A DNA stretch of 64,000 nucleotides from contig JAHLLD010000002.1 in assembly GCA_020444325.1 (NCBI GenBank), positions 62,001 through 126,000 of the forward strand. Reading direction: 5' to 3'. The stretch is from a bacterium. GTDB lineage: Bacteria; Bacteroidota; Ignavibacteria; SZUA-365. Position 1 is the stretch's first letter, and the number at the start of each line of letters is the position of its first letter. A model generated the notes under the pieces. It was not told where the DNA came from, did no database searches, and worked only from the letters and a program-made list of their open reading frames with translations. The translations under genes and the position numbers were made by a program. Below, one piece after another: positions 10,147 through 16,970 of this stretch.

Positions 10147-10635
10147 ATGAGCACTGGTGCCTATGCGTTCCTTTTCTTCGGGGATACCGAACAACTTCTC
10201 CCCGCAATCGATGCGGTGCGCGGAATGCCACAGACTCAGTCCTGGCATGCCGTGGACGGACATTATCACCTGGCCGTTGCGCTGTCCGATAATACGGTGC
10301 GCGACCAGCTCGCAGATCTGCCCGGTGTACAGAACATGCTGTACTGCGAGGTAGACAACGAAATTCGCGGCGGCTTCACTGTCGAAGCTGAACCCACGTA
10401 TGCATGGCTGACGATGGAAGTCGACAGTGAGAAAGCGGCCGAGGTGCAGGAAGCGCTCAAGGCGCTGCCTGAGAATTCCTTTCCCGCTCTCGCCTTCGGC
10501 GACTGTGGTGCCGTGGCTGCGATCAAAGGCGCGACCTTCGAGGTCGTAGACAAAATGGTGGAGAGCGCCGTGCGTCCCCTCGACGGCATGCTCCGCGTGA
10601 AACGTGACTGGATCATCGACCTCACCCAATTATAG
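10147..10635 (+). CDS. Double RAM (Lrp/AsnC-type) domain-like protein
   Basis: A 162-residue protein that opens the redox operon. I do not recognise a named family. The pattern suggests two ferredoxin-like repeats of the sort found in the C-terminal regulatory (RAM) domain of Lrp/AsnC proteins: residues 4-70 (start AYAFLFFGD, then DGHYHLAVALSDN, then LPGVQNMLYCEV) and residues 80-160 (start AYAWLTMEVD, later GDCGAVAAIKG, then RPLDGMLRVKRDW). There is no DNA-binding helix-turn-helix. The ATG has a good AAGGAAGG site. It ends 10 nt before the NuoE-like gene, so it is co-transcribed. A role as assembly factor, ligand sensor or subunit of the complex is inference. Confidence 0.75.
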   Translation: MSTGAYAFLFFGDTEQLLPAIDAVRGMPQTQSWHAVDGHYHLAVALSDNTVRDQLADLPGVQNMLYCEVDNEIRGGFTVEAEPTYAWLTMEVDSEKAAEVQEALKALPENSFPALAFGDCGAVAAIKGATFEVVDKMVESAVRPLDGMLRVKRDWIIDLTQL

Positions 10636-10645
10636 AGGCAGACAG

Positions 10646-11140
10646 ATGGTAGAACAACACACTGAAGAATTCAAACAATTCAATGTCGACCTCTGGAAGT
10701 ACGACGGACATGAGGGTGCGCTCATTCCGCTGCTGCAGTCGGCACAGGACACCTACGGGTACGTCCCGGAAAAGGCTATTCATTATATAAGCCATGTCAC
10801 CGGCATCCCTGCCGCTGAGATTTACGGGGTGGTAACGTTTTATGCGCAGTTCCGCACCAAACCGCTGGGCAAGAATATCATTCGCGTCTGCAATGGCACA
10901 GCCTGCCATGTCAACGGCGTGAAGATGCTCTATAACACGATCCAGGAAGAGCTGGGCGTCAACTATGACGAGACGACCGACGACGGCGAATTCTCGCTGC
11001 TGTCAGTGGCCTGCATCGGTTGCTGCTCACTCGCTCCGGTGATCACAATTAATGGTGAGGTGTTCGGTCGCCTCACAGCAGCGAAGCTGCGTAAAATCCT
11101 TCGCGATGCCCAGCGTCGCGCCAAAGCAAGCGAACAGTAA
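10646..11140 (+). CDS. NuoE-like [2Fe-2S] subunit of an NAD-dependent redox complex
   Basis: A 164-residue thioredoxin-like ferredoxin of the NuoE/HydC/StnC family. The N-terminal helical part has YGYVPEKAIHYIS and AEIYGVVTFYAQF. The four cluster ligands follow: C and C in VCNGTACHVNG near residue 90, and C and C in ACIGCCSLAPV near residue 127, so the family [2Fe-2S] site is intact. It would pass electrons to or from the NuoF-like partner encoded 16 nt downstream. The ATG at 10646 follows AGAGGCAG. The order of the genes matches electron-bifurcating hydrogenases, NAD-dependent formate dehydrogenases and the Stn transhydrogenase. Confidence 0.93.
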   Translation: MVEQHTEEFKQFNVDLWKYDGHEGALIPLLQSAQDTYGYVPEKAIHYISHVTGIPAAEIYGVVTFYAQFRTKPLGKNIIRVCNGTACHVNGVKMLYNTIQEELGVNYDETTDDGEFSLLSVACIGCCSLAPVITINGEVFGRLTAAKLRKILRDAQRRAKASEQ

Positions 11141-11156
11141 AGGCGGCGAGGCATAC

Positions 11157-12914
11157 ATGAAAACAGTATTAGTAGGACTCGGAACCTGTGGTATTTCCGC
11201 AGGCGGAGAAAAAGTTTACCGGGCGCTGCAGGAAGAACTCAAAGAGCATCCCGGCGCATTTGAACTCAAGGAAACCGGCTGTATAGGCATGTGCTACCGT
11301 GAGCCACTGGTAGAAATCCAGGACGGCAATGGCGGCAGCCACCTCTACGCCGAAGTATCACCCGATCGCGTGGGCCGCATTGTTGAAGAGGATATCGTCG
11401 GCGATACCGTCATCGACGACTGGCTCGCCACGGGCGAGGACAGGGAAAAGGGCTTCTTCGAAAATCAGGTACGCATCGTGCTGCGCAACTCGGGTATCAT
11501 CGATCCGGGCAGTATCGAAGAGTATATCGAGCGCGACGGCTACAAGGCCGTAACCAAGGCGCTGAAGGAAATGACACCGGAAACGGTGATCGACGAAGTG
11601 CTGGCCTCCGGACTCCGCGGACGCGGAGGCGGCGGTTTCCCGACGGGCAAGAAATGGCAGTTTACCCGCGGTGCCGAAGGCACGAAAAAATACATTATCT
11701 GTAATGCTGACGAGGGCGATCCGGGCGCGTTCATGGATCGTTCGATTCTTGAAAGCGATCCGCACTCCGTGCTCGAAGGTATGATGATCGCAGGATACGC
11801 GATCGGCGCCGACGAAGCGTATATCTACTGTCGCGCGGAATATCCGAAAGCAATCGCACGCCTGCGTCTGGCGATTTCCCAGGCCATGAAGCGCGGACTG
11901 CTCGGAGAGAACATCCTCGACACCGGCTTCAATTTCAAGATCAAGATCAAGGAAGGTGCCGGTGCGTTCGTCTGTGGTGAGGAAACCGCACTGATCGCGT
12001 CCATCGAAGGACGCCGCGGCATGCCGCGCTTCCGTCCTCCTTTCCCGGCTGTCTCCGGTCTCTGGGGAAAACCAACGAACATCAACAATGTTGAAACCTT
12101 CGCCAATGTACCCTGGATCATCGCCAACGGCGGCAGCGCCTTTGCCGGGTATGGAACCGAGAACAGCAAGGGCACCAAGGTGTTCGCCATGGCAGGAAAG
12201 GTGCGGCGTACGGGACTGATCGAAGTGCCGATGGGACTGACCATCAAGTCGATCATTTTTGACGTCTGCGGCGGTATCCATGACGACAAGGAGTTCAAGG
12301 CCGTGCAGATGGGTGGTCCATCCGGCGGCTGTATCCCGGCTTCGATGTGCGATATCGCAGTCGATTACCAGGAAGTAAACAAAACCGGCGCCATCATGGG
12401 GTCGGGCGGTCTCATCGTGATGGACGAAACGACCTGCATGGTCGACGTCGCGAAATTCTTCCTCACTTTCACGCAGGCGGAATCCTGCGGCAAGTGTACG
12501 TTCTGCCGCATCGGAACCAAGCGCATGCTCGAAATTCTTGAGCGCATCACCGAGGGCGAAGGAACGATGGAAGACCTCGATAACCTCGAGGAACTGAGCG
12601 AACAGATCCGTTCGGCGTCGCTGTGCGGACTCGGACAGACGGCTCCCAACCCCGTCATCACGACGCTCAAATACTTCCGCGAAGAGTACGAAGCGCATAT
12701 TAAAGACAAGAAGTGCCCCGCACACGAATGCGCCTCGCTGCTCACGTATGATATCAATGAAAACTGTAACGGCTGCACGGCCTGTCTACGGGCCTGTCCC
12801 ACGGCCGCGATAACAGGCGAGCGCAAAGAGATGCATTACCTGAACCAGGATCTGTGCATCAAGTGCGGAAAATGTTTCACAGTGTGTCGCTTTGACGCGG
12901 TAACGAAGGATTGA
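11157..12914 (+). CDS. NuoF-like NAD/FMN flavoprotein with extra ferredoxin domains
   Basis: A 585-residue subunit of the NuoF/HydB/StnB type that carries the NAD(H) and FMN site. In order: an N-terminal thioredoxin-like [2Fe-2S] domain (GTCGISAGG, then ETGCIGMC), the nucleotide-binding glycine loop GLRGRGGGGFPTGKKW near residue 150, the FMN region NADEGDPGAFMDR near 185, an SLBB region, the [4Fe-4S] motif ESCGKCTFCRIGTKRM near 445, and a C-terminal 2[4Fe-4S] ferredoxin domain (NCNGCTACLRACP and LCIKCGKCFTVC) at 535-580. The extra domains mark it as a HydB-like form rather than respiratory complex I NuoF. I chose the ATG at 11157, which follows GGCGGCGAGG. It is 16 nt after the previous stop. 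Confidence 0.94.
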   Translation: MKTVLVGLGTCGISAGGEKVYRALQEELKEHPGAFELKETGCIGMCYREPLVEIQDGNGGSHLYAEVSPDRVGRIVEEDIVGDTVIDDWLATGEDREKGFFENQVRIVLRNSGIIDPGSIEEYIERDGYKAVTKALKEMTPETVIDEVLASGLRGRGGGGFPTGKKWQFTRGAEGTKKYIICNADEGDPGAFMDRSILESDPHSVLEGMMIAGYAIGADEAYIYCRAEYPKAIARLRLAISQAMKRGLLGENILDTGFNFKIKIKEGAGAFVCGEETALIASIEGRRGMPRFRPPFPAVSGLWGKPTNINNVETFANVPWIIANGGSAFAGYGTENSKGTKVFAMAGKVRRTGLIEVPMGLTIKSIIFDVCGGIHDDKEFKAVQMGGPSGGCIPASMCDIAVDYQEVNKTGAIMGSGGLIVMDETTCMVDVAKFFLTFTQAESCGKCTFCRIGTKRMLEILERITEGEGTMEDLDNLEELSEQIRSASLCGLGQTAPNPVITTLKYFREEYEAHIKDKKCPAHECASLLTYDINENCNGCTACLRACPTAAITGERKEMHYLNQDLCIKCGKCFTVCRFDAVTKD

Positions 12915-12922
12915 GGTGCACC

Positions 12923-15900
12923 ATGGTAACACTTACGATAAACGGAAAGCAAGTAACCGCATCCCCCGACAAGACCATCCTCCAGGTATGTGAAGATCAG
13001 GGTATCGACACGATTCCCACGCTCTGTTACGACGAGAAGCTGCCGCCGTTTGGCTCCTGCTTCCTCTGCGTAGTGGAGATGGAAGGACAGAATAAACTCT
13101 TCCCGTCGTGCTCGACCAAGGTCGGCGAAGGCATGGTCATTAATACACAGTCCGAGAAAGTCCGCCGCGCGCGCAAGACCTGTCTCGAACTGATCGTTTC
13201 AAATCACTACGCCGACTGCTTCGGCCCCTGCCGCCTCAACTGTCCGGCAGATGTCGACATCCAGGGCTACATGTCGCTCATCAGCCTTGGCAAATTCAAG
13301 GAAGCCGTCGCGCTGATCAAGGAAAAGAACCCGTTGCCTTCGGTCTGCGGACGCGTCTGTACTCGCAAATGCGAGGTCAACTGCCGTCGTACGCTGGTCG
13401 ATTCTCCGGTGGGCATCGATTTCCTGAAACGCTATGTGGCCGATCAGGATATGATCGGTGACATGTGGAAGCCGGAAGTCAAGGACGACAACGGCGTGCG
13501 TGTCGCGATTATCGGTGGTGGTCCCGCCGGACTCACCGCGGCGTACTATCTCGCCATTGAAGGGTATCGTCCGGTCGTGTACGAGGCCCTCCCGCATCTC
13601 GGCGGTATGCTCCGCTACGGTATCCCCGAGTACCGCCTCCCGAAGGAAGTGCTCGACAAGGAAATCAGCTGGATTACCGATCTCGGTGTGGAAGTACATA
13701 CCGGCCGCATGCTGGGTAAGGACTTCTCGATGGACGATCTCTTTGACCAGGGATTCCGCTCGGTTTTTGTCGCACTCGGCGCACAGATCGGCAAGCCCAT
13801 GCGCGTGGAAAACGAGGAAGCCGAGGGCGTGCTCTCCGGCGTCGAATTCCTGCGCAACGTCGAGATGAAAACAAATCCTGACATCAAGGGACGCGTGGTT
13901 GTGGTCGGTGGTGGTAACACCGCGATCGATGCTGCCCGCACGTCGCTTCGTCTCGGTGCGAAAGAAGTCGTGCTGCTGTATCGCCGCACGCGCAATGAGA
14001 TGCCCGCCAACGAGATGGAAATCGTTGCCGCCGAAGAAGAAGGCGTGAAGATGGAATTCCTCGCCGCGCCGACGAAAGTCAACGTGGAAGAGGGACGTAT
14101 GAAATCCCTCGAATGCCTTCGCATGGAGCTCGGCGAGCCCGACGAAAGCGGCCGTCGCCGTCCGGTGAAGATCGAAGGATCCGAATACACGCTTGACTGC
14201 GACTGGATCATCTCTGCTATCGGACAGGAGCCGGATCTCGACGGTGTCGATACGGTCGAAGACATCCAGGTGACCAAGTGGAAAACCATCGAAGCGAAGT
14301 CCGGCACGTTTGAAACCGATCGTCCGGGTGTGTTCTCCGGTGGTGACGTGGTCACGGGTCCCGCTGACGCGATCGATGCCATCGCCGCAGGACGCATGGC
14401 TGCCCGAGCGATCGACAAATATGTGCAGACAGGCATTGTGGAACCCCTGACCGACCGCTTCGAATCCAAGCGTGACAACTTCCATAAAATGACACGCGAG
14501 GACATCCCTCTCGTCAAGGAAAGCACGCGTCATCACGCAGAGGAGATCCCTGTCGCCGAACGCCTCAAAGGTTTTGGTGAAGTGGAGAAAGCCTACAGTG
14601 ATGAAACCGCATTTGAAGAAGCGCTTCGCTGCGCGGAATGCGGCTGCGATGCAGGACTCTCCTGCCGTCTGCAGGATTACTGCACTGAGTACGGTGTGGA
14701 TCAGACACGCTTCGTGGGTGAGTTCAACCGCTACACCCCCGACACGCGTCATCCCTTCATCAAGATTGATTCGAACAAGTGCATTAACTGTGGCCGCTGC
14801 GTCAATACGTGCAAGGACATCCTGAACGTGGCCGCGCTCGGATTCGTCAACCGCGGCTTCCGAACCATCGTCAAGCCGGCGATGGAGAAAGCCCTGCACG
14901 AAACCAATTGCGTGAGCTGCGGTAACTGCATCGACGTGTGTCCTACCGGCACCCTCGTCGAAAGAATGCCGTTCCGTCGTTCGGGTCCCTGGCAGATGGA
15001 TGCCGTCTTCAACGTCTGCAACTACTGCTCGGTTGGCTGCAACGTCACGCTGAAAGTGAAAGCCCCGGATCTGTTTTACGTCGTCGGCGCAGCCCCCGAC
15101 ATGGCTCCGAACTTTGGCGAGCTGTGTGTGAAGGGACGCTTCGGCTATCAGCATTATCTCGATGGCAGCCGCGTCAAGAAGCCGATGGTTCGCAAGGACG
15201 GCGAACTCGTGGAAGTCTCCTGGGAAGAAGCCTTTGAGGCCATTCACAAGGGACGTAAGCGCATTCTTGAGGACTACGGCGCAGACAGTGTGCTCGTATC
15301 CGCTTCGCCGAAGCTGACGGACGAGGAACTCTATCTTGCCGGTCGCTATGGACGCACCGCACTCGAGACGAACAACCTCGTTTCCTTCCACAAGCTCGTC
15401 AGTGGTGCCGATTATCACGCACTCGATGAGATGCTCGGAAGCACGCTTGCCAGCGTGAGTGTCGAAGAAGTCGAAAACGCAGATCTCTATCTGTTCCTCG
15501 GTGGTAATCCCACCAACGAGAATCCTGTCATGGGCTGGCGGGTCAAGCGTCGCATGCGCCAGGGCACGGAAGCGATCGTGATCAACAGCGCCGAGATCGA
15601 CCTCGTACCGCATGCCAGCGTGTGGGCGGATCCTCGTCGCGGTACCTCGACCAAGCTGCTCAATGGTGTCATTGCCGAGCTGCTGCGCCGTGGTGGGATC
15701 AATGAAGACTTCATCGGACGCCGCACCGCGAATTTCGATCAGGTGAAGGCGCAGCTCGAGAGCATTGATCTCTCCGATGTCGCGAGCGTCACCGGCGTTC
15801 CGGAAGTGCAGATCACCCGTATTGTCGAGCTTCTGCTCGATCCCGAGAAGAAGGTGGTCGCATGGTATAACCTCGACAGCAGGCTCGACCGTGCGAACGA

Positions 15901-16654
15901 CGATCTGAAGGCTCTGGCGACGCTGATGATGATGCTCGGCAAGATCGGCGTTGAAGGCTCCGGTATCGCGCTGTTCACCAGCGAGTGCAATCACACCGGA
16001 ATGAGCATCGCCGGTTTCGACCGCCAGATGCTGCCGGGTGGTGCAAACATCAAGAACGAGCGCATCCTCGATGCCGTCAATCGCTTCTGGAAGCACGACA
16101 TCAGCAAGGTGCTTGAAAGCGGCACGAACATCTCCCGGAAAATCCGCGAAGATAAAATCCGCGCCGCCTTCGTCCTGGGTGAGAATCCTTCCGCATCGGA
16201 AGACTACAATGCCTTCATCAACAATCTGGAATTCCTCGTCGTGGCAGACATGTACCTGACGGAGACCGCCCAGATGGCAGATGTATTCCTCCCGATGTCG
16301 AGTTATCTCGAGAGCAAGGGACACCTCACGAACTGGGCCGGTGTGCGTCAGCAGACCAATCCCATCGGTGAGCCCGCCAACGGGATGTCGAACATCGAAC
16401 TGCTGCGCAAGCTTCTCGAGATGGAAGGACTCAAGCCGGAATTCAACGGCTACGAGGACCTCTCGCAGGAAATGATGTCCTTCATCCGTCAGCAGGGACT
16501 CGAAGGCCGCATCGACCGCACCTTCCCGACCGATGACGGTAAGGCACACTTCATCCTCTACTCCGATCAGGTACTCGCAACCAGCGCCAAAATCCCTCAC
16601 GTGCTCGAAATCGACGCACGCATGGCAGAACGCACCACTCTGATCGAGGCTTAA
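12923..16654 (+). CDS. Fusion of [2Fe-2S], GltD-like and formate-dehydrogenase-like domains
   Basis: A 1243-residue protein. Residues 1-110 form a NuoG/FdhA-type [2Fe-2S] domain (C35, C46, C49, C63). Residues 95-190 hold a GltD-type cysteine-rich segment (CPADVDIQGYMSL; CGRVCTRKCEVNC). Residues 190-480 are a flavin/NAD(P)H oxidoreductase like glutamate synthase small subunit or NfnB (IIGGGPAGLTAAYYLA and VVVGGGNTAIDAAR). Two [4Fe-4S] sites follow near 620 and 660 (CINCGRCVNTC, CVSCGNCIDVC), then a molybdopterin oxidoreductase domain from about 695 with CNYCSVGC. Where formate dehydrogenases carry Cys or Sec before His-Gly, this protein reads HKLVSGADYHAL, and no in-frame TGA is present. NADPH-linked electron transfer is therefore more likely than formate oxidation. 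It starts 8 nt after the NuoF-like gene, with GAGGTG as ribosome site. Confidence 0.9.
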   Translation: MVTLTINGKQVTASPDKTILQVCEDQGIDTIPTLCYDEKLPPFGSCFLCVVEMEGQNKLFPSCSTKVGEGMVINTQSEKVRRARKTCLELIVSNHYADCFGPCRLNCPADVDIQGYMSLISLGKFKEAVALIKEKNPLPSVCGRVCTRKCEVNCRRTLVDSPVGIDFLKRYVADQDMIGDMWKPEVKDDNGVRVAIIGGGPAGLTAAYYLAIEGYRPVVYEALPHLGGMLRYGIPEYRLPKEVLDKEISWITDLGVEVHTGRMLGKDFSMDDLFDQGFRSVFVALGAQIGKPMRVENEEAEGVLSGVEFLRNVEMKTNPDIKGRVVVVGGGNTAIDAARTSLRLGAKEVVLLYRRTRNEMPANEMEIVAAEEEGVKMEFLAAPTKVNVEEGRMKSLECLRMELGEPDESGRRRPVKIEGSEYTLDCDWIISAIGQEPDLDGVDTVEDIQVTKWKTIEAKSGTFETDRPGVFSGGDVVTGPADAIDAIAAGRMAARAIDKYVQTGIVEPLTDRFESKRDNFHKMTREDIPLVKESTRHHAEEIPVAERLKGFGEVEKAYSDETAFEEALRCAECGCDAGLSCRLQDYCTEYGVDQTRFVGEFNRYTPDTRHPFIKIDSNKCINCGRCVNTCKDILNVAALGFVNRGFRTIVKPAMEKALHETNCVSCGNCIDVCPTGTLVERMPFRRSGPWQMDAVFNVCNYCSVGCNVTLKVKAPDLFYVVGAAPDMAPNFGELCVKGRFGYQHYLDGSRVKKPMVRKDGELVEVSWEEAFEAIHKGRKRILEDYGADSVLVSASPKLTDEELYLAGRYGRTALETNNLVSFHKLVSGADYHALDEMLGSTLASVSVEEVENADLYLFLGGNPTNENPVMGWRVKRRMRQGTEAIVINSAEIDLVPHASVWADPRRGTSTKLLNGVIAELLRRGGINEDFIGRRTANFDQVKAQLESIDLSDVASVTGVPEVQITRIVELLLDPEKKVVAWYNLDSRLDRANDDLKALATLMMMLGKIGVEGSGIALFTSECNHTGMSIAGFDRQMLPGGANIKNERILDAVNRFWKHDISKVLESGTNISRKIREDKIRAAFVLGENPSASEDYNAFINNLEFLVVADMYLTETAQMADVFLPMSSYLESKGHLTNWAGVRQQTNPIGEPANGMSNIELLRKLLEMEGLKPEFNGYEDLSQEMMSFIRQQGLEGRIDRTFPTDDGKAHFILYSDQVLATSAKIPHVLEIDARMAERTTLIEA

Positions 16655-16693
16655 GAGGAATAAGGTTCTCAGTTTATGCTGAGTATTTGTTAG

Positions 16694-16728
16694 AGCGCTC
16701 CAGTTCACGCACACTGGAGCGCTTTTTT
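16694..16728 (+). terminator. Intrinsic terminator of the redox operon
   Basis: An 11-bp stem AGCGCTCCAGT / ACTGGAGCGCT with an 8-nt loop is followed by six T. It lies 40 nt after the stop of the fusion gene. Confidence 0.9.
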
Positions 16729-16757
16729 ATATACGATGGCGATGGCGAGAGCGAAAT

Positions 16758-16890
16758 CGATCGTCGAAATCGAAATCGATCGTCGAAATCGAAATCGATC
16801 GTCGAAATCGAAATCGATCATCGAAATCGAAATCGATCATCGAAATCGAAATCGATCATCGAAATCGAAATCGATCATCGAAATCGAAAT
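16758..16890. repeat. Seven-copy 19-bp tandem repeat
   Basis: Seven head-to-tail copies of CGATCGTCGAAATCGAAAT. The first three have CGATCGT and the last four CGATCAT, so the array grew by block duplication. Within the unit there is a 6-bp sub-rhythm (GAAATC). There are no spacers. As 19 is not a multiple of three, the array is open in every frame on this strand (EIEID, RRNRNR, SSKSKS), which makes false reading frames. It lies between the operon terminator and the next gene. Confidence 0.95.
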
Positions 16891-16970
16891 CGCCCTCGCC
16901 CTCGTATTCAAATCTCCCTTTCCTGGTATCCCATATCCTGCTATCTTATTCCTTACACCACAGTACGACA

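Follow-up and report, generated by a model that had tools for sequence, protein, structure and literature searches.

The 64,000-nucleotide stretch of Ignavibacteria DNA analysed here (the window) carries four genes in tandem, the last three tightly packed. The last, stnC, is an open reading frame (ORF) at 12923-16654 (+) that runs from an ATG at 12923 to a TAA at 16652-16654 and encodes 1243 amino acids (aa); the longest frame of this ORF begins at TTG 12911. Based on sequence comparison, it is very probable that the genes at 10646-16654 encode an electron-bifurcating transhydrogenase of the StnABC (Nfn-Bfu) type, in which StnC ends in a formate dehydrogenase (FDH)-like domain that has lost its active site. 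The features of the locus are the following.

10147..10635, + strand: RAM/AsnC-like tandem ferredoxin-fold protein of 162 aa, first of the cluster (weak PF01037 match and AlphaFold model)
about 10646..11140, + strand: stnA (bfuC), NuoE/HydC-like [2Fe-2S] thioredoxin-fold subunit (PF01257, E 4e-51; PDB matches)
11157..12914, + strand: stnB (bfuB), HydB/NuoF-like, with N-terminal thioredoxin-like domain, FMN/NAD domain and C-terminal two [4Fe-4S], the predicted bifurcating core (PF01512, PF10589, C-terminal Fer4; PDB matches)
12923..16654, + strand: stnC (bfuA), 1243 aa (PDB matches, conserved ligands)
15392..15406, + strand: KLVSG (aa 824-828), aligned with the FDH motif Arg-Val-Sec/Cys-His-Gly, where Sec is selenocysteine (alignment with FDHs)
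15974..16000, + strand: FTSECNHTG (aa 1018-1026), at the FDH R-G-Q-N-N-V-Q-G motif (Arg lost, Cys1022 present)
16692..16725, + strand: terminator-like hairpin of 13 pairs, 7 of them GC, with a T-rich tail (longest stem found; 37 bp past the stnC stop)

Pfam matches to Fer2_4, Fer4_20, Pyr_redox_2, Fer4_Nqo3, Molybdop_Fe4S4 and Molybdopterin identify StnC as a GltD/NfnB-NuoG/FDH fusion. A [2Fe-2S] domain (aa 1-94) is followed by a GltD/NfnB-like NADPH-FAD domain (95-505), a linker with the NuoG dicluster (506-690), the degenerate FDH-like domain (691-1165) and a tail. The top PDB matches of StnC are 9bov_A (E 7e-268), 8oh5_C (E 5e-238) and 9n5u_A (E 3e-190); those of StnB are 8oh5_B (full-length, E 3e-262), 9bov_B and 9n5u_B, and those of StnA are 9n5u_C, 9bov_C and 8oh5_A. 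These entries come from Sporomusa ovata (8oh5), Caldicellulosiruptor saccharolyticus (9bov) and probably Thermococcus sibiricus (9n5u, labelled NfnA/B/C). In an alignment of 13 sequences, 8oh5_C and 9bov_A among them, all checked StnC Fe-S ligands and the lysine ligand of cluster C7 (K169, corresponding to StnC K170) are conserved across the window protein and the 12 others; conservation extends to the FAD and NADP motifs. We assign the locus to Stn/Nfn-Bfu because each of the three subunits finds its top PDB matches among the solved complexes of this kind and because the ligands and the diagnostic lysine are kept. Chance resemblance is excluded by E-values to 1e-268 and by full-length StnC copies at 70-92% identity in most same-family relatives.

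The initial annotation had recognized an FDH-like domain without its catalytic Cys/Sec, fused to NfnB/GltD, together with NuoE- and NuoF-like partners and a resemblance to Stn, and it had suggested a flavin-based bifurcating complex of NADH, NADP and ferredoxin. The fusion is as it described, the partner genes lie directly upstream, and bifurcation is very probable from the sequence features. StnB has the thioredoxin-like N terminus, the FMN/NAD domain, the NuoF [4Fe-4S] and two C-terminal [4Fe-4S]; a NuoE-like [2Fe-2S] subunit is encoded in the same gene cluster; and the NfnB/GltD domain of StnC lies within a NuoG-type protein. NuoE/NuoF homology alone also occurs in non-bifurcating enzymes, and the two smaller subunits could in principle be only the NADH module of a non-bifurcating NAD(P)H dehydrogenase. 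We consider this highly improbable; the clusters of the StnB thioredoxin-like N terminus and of its C-terminal ferredoxin-like dicluster are reported to be absent from non-bifurcating NuoF-like homologues. NfnAB, in which NfnB is paired with a small FAD subunit, NfnA, and which has no NuoE/F-type core, is not matched, since the neighbours here are of the NuoE/NuoF type. NuoG of complex I shares the NuoG-type Fe-S domains and a non-catalytic molybdopterin-like domain, but has neither a GltD domain nor a ferredoxin-reducing core.

The FDH-like domain retains its [4Fe-4S] ligands C699, C702, C706 and C735, which are invariant among the aligned homologues, in agreement with the initial annotation. 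In an alignment with real FDHs, Val826 falls on the Cys/Sec position and Ser827 on that of the His, so that the metal ligand and the catalytic His are both gone, as had been proposed; the residues KLVSG had been read correctly, but they lie two bases from the 15394-15408 given for them. Where FdhF has Arg333, the window protein has Thr and its close clade has either Ser or Thr. Every degenerate homologue compared lacks a Cys at the metal position, whether from the same family or from as far out as Acetoanaerobium. The C-terminal pterin-binding domain PF01568 is absent from StnC, with no match even at E up to 10, and against TIGR01591 (Fdh-alpha) StnC scores 293.6 bits, below the cut-off of 666.25. 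Among close relatives, the FDH-like domain also diverges faster, at 62-74% identity compared with 77-89% in the GltD domain.

The initial annotation had called for structure superposition and phylogeny. The model of the domain (pLDDT 88.6) matches M. hungatei FDH and 9bov_A equally well (VIA Z 39.8 and 39.5, a tie) and superposes on MeFDH1 with a TM of 0.86. In the sequence alignment, Val, not Cys, stands at the metal position. In the domain tree, in which the long branches L022 and L079 leave the deeper order unsure, the FDH-like domains of StnC proteins cluster together and separately from intact FDHs (support 90/88), which agrees with a single ancestral inactivation. A separate acquisition of another FDH domain in the window clade is not supported, since this tree places its domain among those of the other StnCs, and the N-terminal tree broadly agrees. 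A catalytic Sec was rejected: as first noted, the whole 1243-aa frame contains no in-frame TGA, and one homologue with a single TGA flagged (L086) reaches the normal C terminus and has Val at the active-site column. Recent decay of stnC was discarded too, as each of the 12 genomes sampled from the same family as the window genome (family f1) carries a conserved copy, some of these being cut at contig ends.

That StnC nevertheless is a real FDH with a non-canonical active site, either NADP-linked or NAD/ferredoxin-linked and bifurcating, is scarcely credible. The retained fold, the clade-invariant Cys1022 within the former active-site motif, and the existence of an intact GltD-FDH fusion in Photobacterium speak for it. 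Against it are the substitution of Cys/Sec, His and Arg, the missing pterin-binding domain, the score far from the Fdh-alpha cut-off and the faster evolution of the domain relative to the rest of StnC. Moreover, formate oxidation was assayed in S. ovata Stn and none was seen (PMC7483475). FdhF/FdhA share the fold and the [4Fe-4S] motif with the window StnC, which lacks their catalytic Cys/Sec, His and Arg and their PF01568 domain.

The Photobacterium protein is encoded on plasmid pDA100 of Photobacterium sp. DA100 (NZ_CP119424.1; L080:4947-9152, +). It is a 1402-aa [2Fe-2S]-GltD-dicluster fusion with an intact FDH domain, which keeps Cys-His, Arg and PF01568. No NuoE/NuoF homologue is found near its gene, and it is possibly an NADP-linked formate dehydrogenase fusion.

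The initial annotation regarded the degenerate module as an addition to Stn. It is instead a standard part of StnC: the S. ovata protein, solved by cryo-EM, is a fusion of GltD, NuoG and a catalytically inactive FdhF-like domain (PMC10482914). Its suggestion that the module relays electrons in the manner of NuoG is disfavoured. Electrons in StnC follow the path FAD-C7-C6-C5-C4-C3-B1, the FdhF-branch clusters C1/C2 lie off it, and no functional complex assembles once C1/C2 or the FdhF-like domain are removed (PMC7483475, PMC10482914). An on-path role, as a relay or as the point where another donor feeds in electrons, could account for the four invariant cluster Cys, but their conservation is explained without electron transfer, because Cys-to-Ala changes there block tetramer formation in StnC. 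In addition, the C2 cysteines are predicted to be missing from NsoC and from T. sibiricus NfnA. Taken together with the position of C1/C2 off the FAD-to-FMN path, this makes a relay or entry site very unlikely.

For the window system, the sequence itself shows the homology, the gene order, the conserved ligands and the loss of the active site, and we infer the electron path, the bifurcation site, the role of the dead domain and the physiological direction from the S. ovata enzyme. NADPH would deliver its electrons to the FAD in the GltD-like domain of StnC. The physiological direction is likely to be the reverse, with NADH and reduced ferredoxin driving the reduction of NADP+, and NADPH supply from these two donors is a plausible role of the complex. 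The FDH-like domain would not oxidise formate and would probably be off the electron path, a catalytically dead remnant retained as a scaffold for complex assembly.

The window system shares with S. ovata StnABC (8oh5/8oh9) the gene set stnA-stnB-stnC, the StnC Fe-S ligands, the C7 Lys, the insertion of GltD into NuoG and the inactive C-terminal domain. The GltD domain is 49% identical to that of S. ovata StnC, and the compared part of the FDH-like domain about 35%. The window system differs in its upstream RAM-like gene, in its Ignavibacteria-like host and in several features that weigh against a simple transfer of the S. ovata model. Ile takes the place of S. ovata Cys114, a residue that modulates C7 in that enzyme, and the window clade shares an additional Cys142 with some relatives; the properties of C7 may therefore differ. 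Published work on Stn reports Val or Ile at the Cys114 position in two homologues. Furthermore, the active-site loop is of full length, and a GxNP-like motif and the Lys/Arg after the cluster are kept, which makes the domain fuller than in the solved StnCs. In C. saccharolyticus Nfn-ABC (9bov/9bp5), the best full-length PDB match, the loop is shortened, whereas that of the window StnC is complete with Val/Ser. The Nfn-Bfu of T. sibiricus (PMC9304861; probably 9n5u) shares the BfuBC core and an NfnB-like BfuA, which is about 200-280 aa shorter (9n5u_A, 963 aa) and has a partial C-terminal domain. Because of the full-length loop, the GxNP-like motif, the Lys/Arg and the relocated Cys1022, which is invariant in 14/14 close-clade members and lies in the motif that bears the active-site Arg in FDHs, the domain in the window clade might be not wholly dead and may bind pterin, a metal or another ligand as a redox or allosteric sensor, perhaps with the RAM-like protein; we give this a very small chance.

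The 162-aa RAM-like protein may be a sensor or an accessory subunit. Its PF01037 match is weak (E 0.007, below the cut-off). The AlphaFold model (pLDDT 92) is nearest to the siroheme decarboxylase NirDL (Z 13.3), followed by single RAM/Lrp modules (Z about 8). Wherever a family-f1 locus extends far enough, the gene stands in synteny before the nuoE-like stnA. The protein is fast-evolving and was found only inside this family (41 genomes searched).

Behind stnC, hairpin matches are no more numerous than in shuffled sequence; the hairpin at 16692-16725 is the probable end of the operon. A 19-bp tandem array (CGAAATCGATCATCGAAAT, 7.4 copies, 99% match) lies right behind it at 16752-16892. A promoter scan at the locus found nothing.

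All 12 family-f1 genomes sampled carry stnC, and the relatives are Ignavibacteria and Bacteroidetes metagenome-assembled genomes. The window genome contains no FDH above the TIGR01591 cut-off. No second GltD/NfnB-type protein was found in it, in line with the report that Stn and Nfn are nearly mutually exclusive (PMC7483475). It also has an [FeFe]-hydrogenase adjoining a NuoF-like gene, four POR-type ferredoxin oxidoreductase matches and, on another contig, a NuoG-like protein. On contig C3 of G000, at about 413600-417500 (L098), NuoF-like and HoxU-like genes precede a frame resembling a NiFe-hydrogenase large subunit; this may be a second diaphorase-linked hydrogenase, of the NiFe type. In family f33, open frames of about 660-820 aa (L043-L059) match only the [2Fe-2S]+GltD half of StnC (query residues 1-638) and have neither the NuoG dicluster nor the FDH-like part.

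In conclusion, the system found here is already described as Stn/Nfn-Bfu and occurs here in an Ignavibacteria-like bacterium; the conserved RAM/AsnC-like gene upstream, the clade-invariant Cys1022 and the intact GltD-FDH fusion of Photobacterium are minor new points. A literature search did not find Stn in Ignavibacteria and returned a single paper, with passing mentions, for Bacteroidetes, where Schut et al. place Nfn-type BfuB (PMC9304861). The system is thus little-studied, as first suggested, for this lineage but not for the family, for which structures are solved (8oh5, 9bov, 9n5u). Our results extend the range of Stn/Nfn-Bfu to an Ignavibacteria-like lineage and add no new principle. The variants identified here, with Cys114 lost, Cys142 gained and a fuller dead FDH domain, could be used to probe the role of the off-path clusters and of the unusual cluster C7.
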